64,000 nucleotides of DNA from Fusobacterium varium (GTDB lineage: Bacteria; Fusobacteriota; Fusobacteriia; Fusobacteriales; Fusobacteriaceae). Location: the NCBI GenBank assembly GCA_002356455.1, contig AP017968.1, positions 806,001 to 870,000 of the forward strand. Reading direction: 5' to 3'. A program made the translations under genes and the position numbers. Positions 6,581 to 11,530 of this stretch are shown piece by piece. Position 1 is the stretch's first letter; every line of letters starts with the position of its first letter. The notes under the pieces were generated by a model. The model searched no databases, had not been told where the DNA came from, and saw nothing but the letters and a program-made list of their open reading frames with translations.

Positions 6581-6609
6581 TTGACATTCTAAAAAAAATG
6601 GTGTATTCT
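6581..6609 (+). promoter_or_regulatory. Promoter of the trp leader / importer operon
   Basis: Consensus TTGACA at 6581-6586 and TATTCT at 6604-6609 are separated by 17 bases. Transcription would begin near 6616, giving a leader of about 270 bases before the first importer gene. Confidence 0.75.
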
Positions 6610-6647
6610 CTTTTATAAGAAAAAATGAAAAATGGAGGTGAACAAAA

Positions 6648-6728
6648 ATGATGAATAGATTTACTTGGTGGTGGCAAAACAAACTTCACAAATTTAATAC
6701 TAGACAGGTGGATCAGGTTTTGTCATAG
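6648..6728 (+). CDS. Tryptophan-rich leader peptide (attenuator peptide)
   Basis: A 26-residue open frame starts at ATG 6648 (or 6651) with an SD (tggaggtg) 7 bases upstream and reads MMNRFTWWWQNK, ending ...VDQVLS. Three consecutive Trp codons occupy 6666-6674. Trp is the rarest residue, so three in a row in a short peptide between a consensus promoter and an intrinsic terminator is the hallmark of ribosome-mediated attenuation, as in trpL of enterobacteria or Corynebacterium. The last codons overlap CAGGTTT (6714-6720), complementary to the terminator's 5' arm. Ribosome position would therefore decide whether the terminator forms. Confidence 0.88.
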   Translation: MMNRFTWWWQNKLHKFNTRQVDQVLS

Positions 6729-6801
6729 ATGTTCATTAAAGAGTATAGATATTTTTAATTTTAGTGTGTATTTAAACCTGTTCCAAATGAACAGGTTTTT
6801 T
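6714..6801 (+). promoter_or_regulatory. Trp attenuator: antiterminator and terminator 1
   Basis: The terminator is a perfect 10-bp stem, AAACCTGTTC (6774-6783) with GAACAGGTTT (6789-6798), followed by Ts. The competing pairing is CAGGTTT (6714-6720) with AAACCTG (6774-6780); ACAGGT at 6704-6709 could extend or replace it. A ribosome stalled at the Trp codons (6666-6674) would leave 6714-6720 free, so the antiterminator forms. A ribosome reaching the stop (6726-6728) would cover it, so the terminator forms. Folding is inferred by eye. Confidence 0.78.
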
Positions 6802-6828
6802 ATTTTATATAAAAAGTAATTGTTTATT

Positions 6829-6862
6829 AAGCCTTGTCTCAATTTGACAGGGCTTTTTATTT
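6829..6862 (+). terminator. Second intrinsic terminator in the trp leader
   Basis: AAGCCTTGTC (6829-6838) pairs with GACAGGGCTT (6846-6855), one G-U pair and a 7-base loop, followed by a T-rich run. It lies directly before the SD of the first binding-protein gene. No clear antiterminator partner is visible for this one. Confidence 0.7.
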
Positions 6863-6885
6863 TTTAATATTTTAAGGAGGAAAAA

Positions 6886-7782
6886 ATGAAAAAATTATTT
6901 ATTTTACTTTTAATTATTTTATGTACAGCATGTGGAACAGAAAAACAAAAAAAGATAGAGATAGGAATTACACAAATAGTAGAACATCCTTCATTAGATG
7001 ATGTCAGAAAAGGAGTAATTGATGCTTTAAAAGAAAAAGGATATGATGAAAATAAAATAAATATAAATTATAAAAATGCTCAGGGAGATTTTGGAACAGC
7101 TCAGGTAATAGCCCAAGAATATAATAATAACAGTGATGTAATAATTGCTATATCAACACCAAGTGCTCAGGCAGCTGCAAATAATATAAAAGACAAACCT
7201 ATATTTTTTTCAGCTATAACTAATCCAGAGAGTGCTGGAATACTTAGAAAAAATGTGACAGGGGTAAGCGATAAATCACCAGTACAAAAACAGGTACAGC
7301 TTATAGAACGACTTTTGCCAGAAGCAAAAAATATAGGAATTGTATATAACACAAGTGAGCAGAATTCTTTTTATTTGACAGAGGAATTTACTAAAGCAGC
7401 AAAGGAAAAAGGTTATATTGTAAAAGTAAAAGGAATAAGCAATATAAGTGAGATGGCTTCTGCTTTAGATACACTTCTTCCTGCAATAGATGTACTTTAT
7501 ACTTCAATAGATAATACTATTGCTTCTACATATCCTCTTATTGTAGAAAAAAGTAATAAAGCTAATAAGCCAATAATAGGAGCTACTAAAAGTTTTGTTG
7601 AACAGGGAGCATTGGCTGTAGATGGAATATCTGACTATCAAGTTGGATATCAGACAGGAGAAATGGTAGTCAGATACCTGAATGGAGAGAAGATAGAGAA
7701 CATTCCATATGAGGTTGTAGAGAAGTCAGAAATGTATATAAATGAAGATGCTGCAAAAAAATTTGGCATAAAGGGAGAATAG
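6886..7782 (+). CDS. Tryptophan-type ABC transporter substrate-binding lipoprotein (TrpX-like, copy 1)
   Basis: 298 residues. A lipoprotein signal (MKKLFILLLIILCTAC, lipobox LCTAC with Cys16) anchors it to a membrane. The mature protein is an ABC_sub_bind (DUF534/TrpX) type two-lobe binding protein: IGITQIVEHPSLDDVRKGV, then NAQGDFGTAQVIAQE, AISTPSAQAAA and LPEAKNIGIVYNTSEQNS, all close to TrpX. The next gene is a paralogue with the same motifs in the same order. Together with permease and ATPase genes downstream it forms an importer; the Trp-codon leader upstream points to tryptophan as the substrate. Specificity is inferred, not proven by residues I can assign. Confidence 0.87.
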   Translation: MKKLFILLLIILCTACGTEKQKKIEIGITQIVEHPSLDDVRKGVIDALKEKGYDENKININYKNAQGDFGTAQVIAQEYNNNSDVIIAISTPSAQAAANNIKDKPIFFSAITNPESAGILRKNVTGVSDKSPVQKQVQLIERLLPEAKNIGIVYNTSEQNSFYLTEEFTKAAKEKGYIVKVKGISNISEMASALDTLLPAIDVLYTSIDNTIASTYPLIVEKSNKANKPIIGATKSFVEQGALAVDGISDYQVGYQTGEMVVRYLNGEKIENIPYEVVEKSEMYINEDAAKKFGIKGE

Positions 7783-7947: not shown

Positions 7948-8868
7948 ATGAAAAAAATACTTATGCTATTAATGGGACTTTCAATAGTAGCTTTTGGAAA
8001 GGAACCAGCAAAAATAAAAGTAGGAATAACTCAGATAATGGAACATCAGGCTTTGGACTCTGCAAGAGAAGGTTTTATAAAAGCACTTAAAGATGGAGGT
8101 TATGGAGAAGCAAAGATAGATTATCAAAATGCTCAAGGAGATTTTGGAACAGCACAAATGATAGCTAATTCATTTGTTCAGGATAAAAAAGATATCATAT
8201 TAGCAATTTCAACACCAAGTGCTCAGGCAGCTTATAATGCAACTAAAAAAATTCCTATTCTTATAACAGCAGTTACAGATGCTGAAAGTGCAGGATTAGT
8301 TGGAGAAAATATAACAGGAACAAGTGATGCTGCTCCAATATACAAACAGCTTGAAATAATAACAAAACTTTTGCCAGAGGCTAAGAAAGTTGGAATTATT
8401 TATAATACAAGTGAGCAAAACTCACAAGTACAGGTAGCACAAGCAAAAACAGAGGCAGCAAAATTAGGTCTAGAAATAGTAGAAACAGGAATTACAACAA
8501 TAAATGATATGGCTATTGGATTAGATTCTCTTCTTCCAAAAGTAGATGTACTTTACACACCTACAGATAACTTAGTAGTTGCTTCAACACCTCTTTTGTT
8601 AGAAAAAGCTAATAAAGCAGGAAAGCCAGTTGTAGGAAGCGTTGAAGACCAAGTTATGCAGGGAGCTTTAGTTACTGAAACAATAGATTATGAAAGATTA
8701 GGATATCAAACTGGAGAAGTTGCTGTGCAGGTTTTAAATGGAACTGTACCCAATGCTATTCCAATAGAAACTTTAAAAGATACTCAGTTGATAATAAATA
8801 AAAAAGCAGCAGAAAAATATAATGTAGATCTTTCATCAAAAGCTTTAGAAGGAGCTAAACAATATTAA
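7948..8868 (+). CDS. Tryptophan-type ABC transporter substrate-binding protein (TrpX-like, copy 2)
   Basis: 306 residues, a paralogue of the preceding lipoprotein with the same order of motifs: VGITQIMEHQALDSAREGF, NAQGDFGTAQMIA, ISTPSAQAAY, LLPEAKKVGIIYNTSEQNS. It differs in having a standard signal peptide (MKKILMLLMGLSIVAFG) without a lipobox Cys, so it is predicted to be soluble in the periplasm. Two binding proteins for one permease suggests two affinities or two related ligands. The SD aggggga is embedded in a stem-loop. The permease gene follows after 36 bases. Confidence 0.88.
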   Translation: MKKILMLLMGLSIVAFGKEPAKIKVGITQIMEHQALDSAREGFIKALKDGGYGEAKIDYQNAQGDFGTAQMIANSFVQDKKDIILAISTPSAQAAYNATKKIPILITAVTDAESAGLVGENITGTSDAAPIYKQLEIITKLLPEAKKVGIIYNTSEQNSQVQVAQAKTEAAKLGLEIVETGITTINDMAIGLDSLLPKVDVLYTPTDNLVVASTPLLLEKANKAGKPVVGSVEDQVMQGALVTETIDYERLGYQTGEVAVQVLNGTVPNAIPIETLKDTQLIINKKAAEKYNVDLSSKALEGAKQY

Positions 8869-8904: not shown

Positions 8905-9753
8905 ATGTTATTAGGAACATTAGAACAAAGTTTTATTTTTGCAGTAATGGTACTGGGAGTTTATATATCATATAAAATACTGGATTTTCCAGATATGACA
9001 GTAGATGGAAGTTTTCCTTTAGGTGCAGCAGTGGCAGCAGCTTCTATAGTAAAAGGATTGAATCCTGTACTAGCACTTATTCTGGCTATGGCAGCAGGAG
9101 CAGCAGCAGGATTTATTACAGGAATGATTCATGTGAAGCTGAGAGTTACAAACCTTCTGGCTGGTATAATTGTTATGACAGGACTTTACAGCATAAATTT
9201 AAGAATAATGGGAAAATCTAATATACCTCTATTTTCAGTAAAACATCTTTTCAATGGAAGTGTTTCAGCTATTATTGTAGTAGCTGTTATCCTTCTTGTA
9301 GTAAAATTAGGAATAGATTTTCTATTGAAAACAAAATTTGGTTTTGCACTTAAAGCACTTGGAGATAATGAAAGTTTGATAATTTCATTAGGGTTGAATG
9401 AAAAAACATTAAAAATATATGGACTTATGCTTGCGAACAGTCTAGTAGCTCTTTCGGGGGCAATACTGGCACAGTATCAAGGATTTGCTGATGTAGGAAT
9501 GGGAACAGGAACTATTATTACAGGTCTGGCATCTATAATAATTGGGGATGCACTCTTTGGAAAGAAAAAAGTAATAAAAATATCAATGATGGTAATATTT
9601 GGAACTATAATATATAGAACAATAATTGCTTTATCTCTAAAAGTTGGAATGAATGCAAGTGATTTGAAACTTATAACTTCAGCACTTGTAGTTATAATAA
9701 TTTTCTTGAAAGAAAAAAAACATCTGCTAAAAGGAGGGATTGTGAATGCTTAA
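8905..9753 (+). CDS. ABC transporter permease of the TrpX-type importer (TrpY-like)
   Basis: 282 residues, almost wholly hydrophobic, with about eight to nine membrane segments and the branched-chain/sugar permease (LivH/BPD_transp_2) style: FPDMTVDGSFPLGAAVAA near residue 30, VKLRVTNLLAGIIVMTG near 77, and GFALKALGDNESLIISLG near 145, the cytoplasmic coupling loop that contacts the ATPase. This is the usual partner of ABC_sub_bind proteins. The ATG at 8905 has aaaaggaga upstream. Its last codons overlap the ATPase gene by 8 bases, so the two are translationally coupled. Confidence 0.9.
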   Translation: MLLGTLEQSFIFAVMVLGVYISYKILDFPDMTVDGSFPLGAAVAAASIVKGLNPVLALILAMAAGAAAGFITGMIHVKLRVTNLLAGIIVMTGLYSINLRIMGKSNIPLFSVKHLFNGSVSAIIVVAVILLVVKLGIDFLLKTKFGFALKALGDNESLIISLGLNEKTLKIYGLMLANSLVALSGAILAQYQGFADVGMGTGTIITGLASIIIGDALFGKKKVIKISMMVIFGTIIYRTIIALSLKVGMNASDLKLITSALVVIIIFLKEKKHLLKGGIVNA

Positions 9754-10537
9754 TATAAATAATGTGAAAAAAAGTTTCCAGACTGAACTTGGAAGTATAA
9801 AAAGAGTATTTAAAGGTCTGGACCTCCATGTTGAAAAAGGAGATTTTATTTCTATAATAGGGAGTAATGGAGCAGGGAAATCTACTCTTTTAGATACTAT
9901 AACTGGAAATATTGTTCCTGATAGCGGAACTATTGATATAGATGGAAGAGATATTACAAATCTTCCAAGATATAAGAGAGGAAGTTTTATATCTAAAGTA
10001 TATCAAAATCCAGCAATGGGAACAGCTCCTTCAATGACAGTATTTGAAAATCTTTCAATGGCAGATAATAAGGGAAAAAGATTCGGGTTTACATTGGGAT
10101 TGAATAAAAAGAGAAAAGAGTACTATAGATCATTATTAAAAGAACTTGATTTAGGAATAGAAGATCAAATGGATACAGAGGTTGGATCACTATCTGGAGG
10201 ACAAAGACAATGTCTAGCACTGATAATGGCTACTTTGAACAAACCTCAGGTTCTTTTATTGGATGAACATACAGCAGCTCTTGATCCAAAAACATCTAAA
10301 ATAATAATGGATAAGACAAGGGAAATAGTAGAAAAAAATAATATATCTACACTTATGATAACTCATAATCTTCAGGACGCAATAAATTATGGAAATAGAC
10401 TTATTATGCTTCATGAAGGAGAGATACTTATAGATGTGAGAGGAGATGAAAAGAAAAATCTTACATCTGAAAAATTATTGAGAATATTCAATAAAAAAGA
10501 AGCTGGATTAAAAGATAGTGAACTTTTTTCAGCATAA
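9746..10537 (+). CDS. ABC transporter ATP-binding protein of the TrpX-type importer (TrpZ-like)
   Basis: 263 residues with all ATPase signatures: Walker A GSNGAGKST (about 39-47), signature LSGGQRQ (about 149), Walker B LLLDEHTAALDP (about 169-180) and the switch His in MITHNLQDA (about 206). One ATPase gene implies a homodimer driving the permease encoded just upstream, whose stop it overlaps by 8 bases. The SD aaaggaggg lies within the end of the permease gene. A strong terminator follows, closing the four-gene operon that begins at the Trp-codon leader. Confidence 0.92.
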   Translation: MLNINNVKKSFQTELGSIKRVFKGLDLHVEKGDFISIIGSNGAGKSTLLDTITGNIVPDSGTIDIDGRDITNLPRYKRGSFISKVYQNPAMGTAPSMTVFENLSMADNKGKRFGFTLGLNKKRKEYYRSLLKELDLGIEDQMDTEVGSLSGGQRQCLALIMATLNKPQVLLLDEHTAALDPKTSKIIMDKTREIVEKNNISTLMITHNLQDAINYGNRLIMLHEGEILIDVRGDEKKNLTSEKLLRIFNKKEAGLKDSELFSA

Positions 10538-10687: not shown

Positions 10688-11530
10688 ATGAAGAAAATCA
10701 GGGTTACAGTACCAGAAGATATCTGGCGTCTTATGAAAAATGACATTGAAGAATTTGGAATAAATAATAATAAACTTTGCAACTATATCCTTGAAAGATT
10801 TAAATATAATAGAAAAATGGATGTTGAAAAACTCTTGGAAACGCAAGGAAGACCATTAAAAAAGATAATTCAATTTGATTTGAATGTTTCTAATAGAGAA
10901 ATATATTATGATGTACTAAAAGCTAATGAAGTAGATATAGAAGCTGAATATTTTAGAGATTTGTTTGAGCTGTATACATCTAAATTCAAATATCAAAGAG
11001 AAATATTTATATTTGAAGACAGAGTTAAAATGATATTAGAAGGAATAAAAGAAAGAAAAAAAATAAAGATAAAATATTTGAAAAGAGTATTTAATGTAGA
11101 ACCTTATTTTATAAAAAGAGAAGAAAGAGGAGACGAGAACTTTCTTTTCTGTTATGATGAAGAAAAAAAGAATTATGCTAATTTTAAATTAAAAGAATTA
11201 GAAATAATTTCCATATTAGATGAAAAAATAAAAGGTAAGGATAAAAAATATATAGAAAATGTTCGTAAAAATTTTGATCCATTTTTAGGAAATGGTAATA
11301 TTGTAAAAGTAAGACTGACAGAAGAAGGGGACAGCCTTTTAAAAAGTTTTACTAACTATCGTCCTAAGCTTATAAAAAAAGAGGGAGATATATATTTTTT
11401 TGAAGCAGCTAATGAGAATGCTAAACTATATTTCAGGCAATTTTCAAAAGAAGCAGAAATACTGGAACCTAAAAGTTTGAGAGAAGAAATAAAAAATGAA
11501 TATTTGGAAGTTTTAGAATTATATAAATAA
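10688..11530 (+). CDS. WYL-domain protein with N-terminal RHH-like DNA-binding segment
   Basis: 280 residues. The N terminus (KKIRVTVPEDIWRLMKNDIEEFGINNNKLCNYILERF, given in parts: KKIRVTVPEDIWRLM, then a helix pair) reads like a ribbon-helix-helix DNA-binding module. The middle holds a WYL domain: RKKIKIKYLKRVFNVEPYFI, then ENFLFCYDEEKKNYANFKL, where FCYDEE stands for the WYLvayD motif. The C terminus EAEILEPKSLREEIKNEY fits the WCX extension. WYL proteins usually sense nucleic acid or nucleotide ligands and regulate defence or stress genes. It is monocistronic between two terminators, so its target is not shown by context. Confidence 0.78.
   Translation: MKKIRVTVPEDIWRLMKNDIEEFGINNNKLCNYILERFKYNRKMDVEKLLETQGRPLKKIIQFDLNVSNREIYYDVLKANEVDIEAEYFRDLFELYTSKFKYQREIFIFEDRVKMILEGIKERKKIKIKYLKRVFNVEPYFIKREERGDENFLFCYDEEKKNYANFKLKELEIISILDEKIKGKDKKYIENVRKNFDPFLGNGNIVKVRLTEEGDSLLKSFTNYRPKLIKKEGDIYFFEAANENAKLYFRQFSKEAEILEPKSLREEIKNEYLEVLELYK

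Follow-up and report, generated by a model that had tools for sequence, protein, structure and literature searches.

Here we asked how an ABC importer for aromatic amino acids is controlled in Fusobacterium varium, and specifically whether the Trp-codon-rich short reading frame ahead of it acts as an attenuator, as a first-pass annotation of this 64,000-nucleotide stretch of DNA (the window) had proposed. We conclude that the leader is very probably a ribosome-mediated tryptophan attenuator of the importer. The promoter, Shine-Dalgarno sequence, leader frame, Trp codons, terminator and CAGGTTT motif (6714-6720) that the annotation had listed are all in place, whereas a second terminator (T2) and a protector hairpin had escaped it (Table 1). 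As expected of the class, the leader is a short, Shine-Dalgarno-led frame in which codons for the end-product amino acid stand in a row. It is the only such frame with WWW in the 64-kb window; in dinucleotide-preserving shuffles (n = 200) the WWW frame occurs 0 times, and 0.145 frames are expected with WW alone.

Table 1. Features of the leader and of the importer genes behind it (window coordinates)
Feature	Coordinates	Strand	Remarks
Sigma-70-type promoter, TTGACA-N17-TATTCT	6581-6609	+	10/12 match to consensus
Shine-Dalgarno sequence of leader ORF, GGAGGTG	6634-6640	+	conserved in homologues
Leader peptide ORF, MMNRFTWWWQNKLHKFNTRQVDQVLS	6648-6728	+	26 codons; ATG 6648, stop TAG 6726-6728
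Three adjacent TGG (Trp) codons, proposed stall site	6666-6674	+	WWW or WW in all Trp-type homologues
Region 1, 5' arm of protector hairpin, GUGGCAAAAC	6671-6680	+	pairs with 6717-6726
AS2, AGACAGG, candidate second antiterminator strand, for T2	6702-6708	+	not significant in window alone, strong in g12 homologues
Region 2 (AS1), UGGA-U-CAGGUUU, antiterminator strand for T1	6709-6720	+	
3' arm of protector hairpin, GUUUUGUCAU	6717-6726	+	overlaps AS1 and stop codon
Terminator T1 (regions 3:4), 10 bp, then U-run	6774-6798	+	fold z -4.7
Terminator T2, 10 bp, AAGCCTTGTC/GACAGGGCTT, then U-run	6829-6855	+	fold z -6.5
First TrpX-type substrate-binding protein (PF04392)	6886-7782	+	pocket T/D
Second substrate-binding protein (PF04392)	7948-8868	+	pocket V/Y, Phe-type by homology
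ABC permease (BPD_transp_2)	8905-9753	+	
ABC ATPase	9746-10537	+	

We observe that the leader RNA can form three mutually exclusive structures, namely a protector (1:2), an antiterminator (2:3) and a terminator (3:4). The protector hairpin, another element of the class, is the minimum free energy structure of 6660-6735 (-16.2 kcal/mol) and is weak in the homologous leaders of trpS and in those with Tyr codons. In the antiterminator, AS1 pairs with AAACCUG-U-UCCA (6774-6785) through 11 pairs around one U-U mismatch; the complementarity of CAGGTTT to the terminator 5' arm, as annotated, stands, whereas the antiterminator extends further than had been described, over the whole of 6709-6720. The same pairing is found in the minimum free energy structure of 6681-6800, approximately the stretch that a ribosome on the Trp codons would leave exposed. 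The AS1:T1 duplex reaches -14.3 kcal/mol versus -6.1 +/- 1.9 for shuffled leaders, with a pooled Fisher p of ~4e-12 over leaders when related leaders are counted as independent. Between the leader ORF and the first gene, where the class has an intrinsic terminator, there are two, and T2 ends ~30 nt upstream of the first importer gene.

To model the ribosome states, we folded 22 leaders at the stage of transcription at which the terminator 5' arm and loop have been made but the 3' arm has not, and masked all RNA up to a ribosome placed either on the last Trp (or Tyr) codon or at the stop codon. The window's leader occupies the T1 5' arm at 0.00 with no ribosome, 0.89 with a stalled ribosome and 0.00 with a ribosome at the stop, and the T2 5' arm at 0.00, 0.63 and 0.00, respectively; because masking takes the segment out of pairing, the at-stop values are necessarily low. 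Across 21 leaders, the mean stalled occupancy of T1 is 0.76 versus 0.24 with the intervening segment shuffled. The antiterminator is thus free in silico at the stall and masked when the ribosome finishes, as in the known class; folding under these ribosome masks yields the window antiterminator only with the ribosome stalled at Trp and agrees with the first-pass view that a stalled ribosome frees the strand and one at the stop codon covers it. Equilibrium folding with the 3' arm made favours the terminator in every ribosome state for most leaders (0.69 in the window with the ribosome stalled), and equilibrium folding of finished terminators does not tell the ribosome states apart. Since equilibrium favours the terminator even with a stalled ribosome, the switch would have to be kinetic, and we infer that timing, with the antiterminator taking kinetic precedence, decides it.

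In the mechanism that we propose, scarcity of charged tRNA-Trp would stall the ribosome on UGG-UGG-UGG (6666-6674), where it would cover region 1 and open the protector hairpin; region 2 (6709-6720) would then pair with the nascent T1 5' arm, T1 would be blocked and the importer transcribed. With sufficient Trp, the ribosome would reach the UAG at 6726 and cover region 2, so that T1 would form and transcription stop, and without translation the 1:2 hairpin would sequester region 2 and T1 would form likewise. T2 would probably be opposed by the same leader segment, either through AS2 or through AS1 reused after RNA polymerase has passed T1. We did not find trpA in the window's genome (17 of the 61 family genomes have it), and without it Trp must come from uptake; tryptophan availability is predicted to set importer expression in a Fusobacterium unable to make tryptophan.

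Upon examining related genomes, we find the leader upstream of the orthologous importer in the four other same-genus genomes that have the first substrate-binding protein, and no leader at the corresponding place in same-genus genomes without that protein (F. mortiferum type, via L146). Further copies are on plasmid pILYOP01 of Ilyobacter polytropus (MMAKFTWWWQNKIDQYNKSQVNQVLSKSA), in Propionigenium maris and in Psychrilyobacter-type genomes. When 98 Fusobacteriota genomes were searched with a sequence model of the leader (R1), 27 had matches, of which the convincing ones are confined to Fusobacteriaceae, where they fall in eight genus-level groups of genomes (g1, g7, g8, g9, g10, g12, g13, g14). 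Weak matches inside coding genes (L127/L232, L128, L130, L131) were dropped. Homologous leaders keep the Trp codons, the frame, the terminator and the antiterminator geometry across the family, and TTGACA-like promoters lie upstream of them as well; the loss of Trp codons or frame that the first-pass annotation had named as evidence against attenuation is not seen among them. The alignment that it had advised is less telling for covariation: terminator stems differ among leaders with pairing kept, whereas the AS1 core CAGG:CCUG is nearly invariant and yields one clear double change (UAGG:CCUA in L073). The ungapped AS1:T1 register has a paired fraction of 0.76 versus at most 0.56 in slid registers. 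Double changes are not in excess, the slid-register controls giving as many, and on this ground we claim no AS1:T1 covariation. The Psychrilyobacter trpX and g7 trpE leaders have no clear AS1:T1 pairing.

The leader is also located before trpE of trp operons in Ilyobacter, Propionigenium, Psychrilyobacter-type genomes, G043 and G038/G039, the operon behind it being trpEGDCFBA (annotated through trpA in Ilyobacter), and before trpS in the Psychrilyobacter group; by position, it would control genes for the amino acid of its codons. Since the leader is shared by the importer, trp biosynthesis and trpS, Trp sensing is the common denominator, and we take these additional sites, as genomic context, to be the strongest evidence on function. 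There appears to be a tryptophan regulon in Fusobacteriaceae that comprises uptake, synthesis and tRNA charging, which would extend translation-coupled Trp attenuation, known mainly from other phyla, to Fusobacteriota. The attenuation proposed at first pass thereby gains support, both from the conserved leader and from its recurrence before trp genes and trpS.

The importer itself was examined for its likely substrate. Both substrate-binding proteins belong to PF04392, and the only NCBIfam family matched is NF041285 (TrpX), at 281 and 261 bits, under the curated cut-off of 390. Structures place the pocket residues at E263 and Y279 in CD0873 (Tyr), at Ala and Gln in SP1069 (Trp) and at Ala and Tyr in VC_1101 (Phe) (PMC6816091). 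The first protein has T/D, residues that would fit Trp rather than Tyr, and neither Glu at CD0873 position 263 nor Tyr at 279, whereas the second (V263/Y279) departs from the Trp-type pocket, and with its Phe-like pocket the importer may serve more than Trp. Specificity for Trp, which had been inferred for the importer at first pass, is supported by homology for the first protein only, the second having a different pocket. Behind the importer lies a gene for a WYL-type protein (10688-11530; weak WCX match), a possible linked regulator, and the Ilyobacter polytropus gene at the same place is annotated as WYL domain-containing.

Three g12 MAGs carry a recognisably related leader with 6-7 consecutive Tyr codons, TAT and TAC being mixed (MAHTFAYWWSYYYYYYYSSDFSLNNKQM; MAHTFAYWRNDYYYYYYGSRIFV; MMKLSTYWQDYYYYYYYCINNLYNKQVDRF), before paralogous importers; in addition, one of these MAGs (G049) has a leader of the Trp type in front of a different importer (L227). 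Where a substrate-binding protein directly follows a Trp leader, its first pocket residue is T or V and its second D, E or Q, the Glu/Tyr pair never occurring; the three that directly follow Tyr leaders all have Glu at 263. As the pocket residues track the leader type, leader codons and pocket agree, which suggests that the codons may tell whether a transporter is specific for Trp or for Tyr.

Almost every leader of the Trp or Tyr type has T2 between it and the gene, and an uncontrolled T2 would leave the operon blocked. In two g12 Tyr leaders, the 12 nt directly 5' of AS1 (AAUAAUAAGCAG) form a perfect complement of the T2 5' arm CUGCUUAUUAUU. In g1, the homologous segment (AGACAGG) fits the T2 of its own leader, and two positions have changed in a compensatory way between g1 and g12. 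In g8 and g10, T1 and T2 have the common arm ACCUGU, and a single AS1 could serve T1 and then T2. The mean stalled T2 occupancy over 19 leaders is 0.58 versus 0.23 with the intervening segment shuffled, and the AS:T2 duplex has a pooled Fisher p of ~1.5e-10 over leaders, related leaders being counted as independent. We consider it rather probable that T2 is also antiterminated under leader control. That T1 alone attenuates and T2 is a plain backup, a sub-question compatible with the attenuator reading, agrees with the window's own AS:T2 duplex, which is no better than shuffles (p ~0.2), but it conflicts with the placement of T2, the pooled duplex value, the two compensatory positions and the stalled occupancy, and we view it as rather unlikely. 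A fuller account, for which we see an even chance, is that a single leader peptide controls both tandem terminators, using either two adjacent antiterminator strands or one strand handed from T1 to T2 after polymerase passes T1, and that the family diversified by a Trp-to-Tyr codon swap, from which a tyrosine importer gained a Tyr-codon attenuator. Such a tandem-terminator attenuator would be testable in a simple reporter.

Other modes of sensing were weighed against attenuation by stalling. In a TnaC-like mechanism, the nascent peptide would bind free Trp in the ribosome tunnel and high Trp would raise expression; peptide residues beyond the Trp codons are indeed partly conserved (WWWQN...QVNQVLS), but the leader is also found before trpS and the trp biosynthesis genes, all of which have to be induced when Trp is short, its Trp codons stand in a run, intrinsic terminators lie downstream, and the L074 frame stops short of the conserved AS segment, which argues that RNA and not peptide is kept there. 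The W-D-P spacing of TnaC is absent from the leader peptide, and we judge this mechanism very unlikely.

Still further from the data, and highly improbable, is control by a T-box or TRAP-like protein, as for Firmicutes TrpX or trp operons. TrpX of Streptococcus suis is T-box controlled (PMC9382623), and in one relative (G033, L234 1501-1772) a T-box stands directly before trpE, where relatives carry the Trp leader, so that one trp operon has two sensing systems within Fusobacteriaceae. Against this, Rfam models, the T-box among them, give no convincing match at the leader, the frame with its Trp codons has been conserved, and no T-box (RF00230) was found in the window's genome at E 0.001, a soft result given that few candidates were scored per genome and only two control genomes came above the cut-off. 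TRAP, which UAG repeats at a paralogous operon had brought up, was rejected, MtrB/TRAP (PF02081) being found in 0 of 61 family genomes and in the B. subtilis control.

Compared with known systems, the attenuator has in common with trpL of E. coli and other Proteobacteria (RF00513) the Trp-codon leader peptide, the 1:2, 2:3 and 3:4 geometry and a terminator before the operon, and differs in its three adjacent Trp codons, second terminator and importer target; the Rfam RF00513 Trp_leader covariance model has no match at the leader. Actinobacterial leader-peptide attenuators likewise occur at trp operons and trpS, in another phylum and with another sequence, and transporters are not mentioned in that paper (PMC1262725). 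Streptococcus suis trpXYZ has the same importer family and an induction by Trp limitation such as we propose here, but its sensor is a tRNA-binding riboswitch (T-box) instead of a translated leader (PMC9382623). Both uORFC-13-1 (PMC8632094) and the His leader peptides of bacilli (PMC2965389) have an amino-acid-codon uORF beside a terminator outside Proteobacteria, with Phe or His codons, other genes and other phyla. A T-box survey reported none in the Fusobacteria and Thermotogae genomes it covered (PMC2494555). We found no description of Trp attenuation by a leader peptide in Fusobacteria in the open-access literature, most subscription papers being outside this scope, and the first-pass annotation had likewise known of none in the phylum. 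The mechanism is probably that of trpL, in a new lineage, with a new target and in a two-terminator variant, and the attenuator was apparently undescribed in Fusobacteriota before.

Several other elements were observed near importers and trp genes. Two G000 loci (L047/L261, 3.412 Mb; L247/L269, 0.714 Mb) and their relatives (L042-L051, L101) carry a different RNA element upstream of a paralogous importer and an NhaC-like transporter gene, consisting of GUAGAAUWGUAG repeats (8-nt period), a variable hairpin and an almost invariant terminator, (A/G)CCUUUUUACAAUU..GUAAAAAGG, with whose arm UUGUAGAAU can pair; it has no Rfam match, and there is no TRAP in the family. Because the substrate-binding proteins of these importers are all Tyr-type (Glu263/Tyr279) and a Tyr T-box controls NhaC genes in Firmicutes (PMC2494555), the element looks like that of a tyrosine regulon. 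Looser GUAG-repeat leaders before importers with Glu263/Tyr279 proteins (L090, L099, L104; g9, g10) suggest a diverged form of the same element. In g4, sub-threshold matches to RF04312 (trpB ncRNA motif) lie upstream of an importer (L102 3361-3462, L103 3384-3485) whose substrate-binding protein has the exact SP1069 Trp pocket (A/Q), and L102 has a short ORF with two Trp codons. The leader at L230 (G039 C1:266-358; MIRFLYWWQKNSKLNNQYESGFAIL) has both T1 and T2 and precedes a gene whose start resembles an HMGL-type aldolase and which is not an obvious Trp gene. Finally, importers without the leader (L037, L039, L082, L085, L098) have a common block like TTGTTATCTAC near the promoter, possibly a transcription factor binding site.
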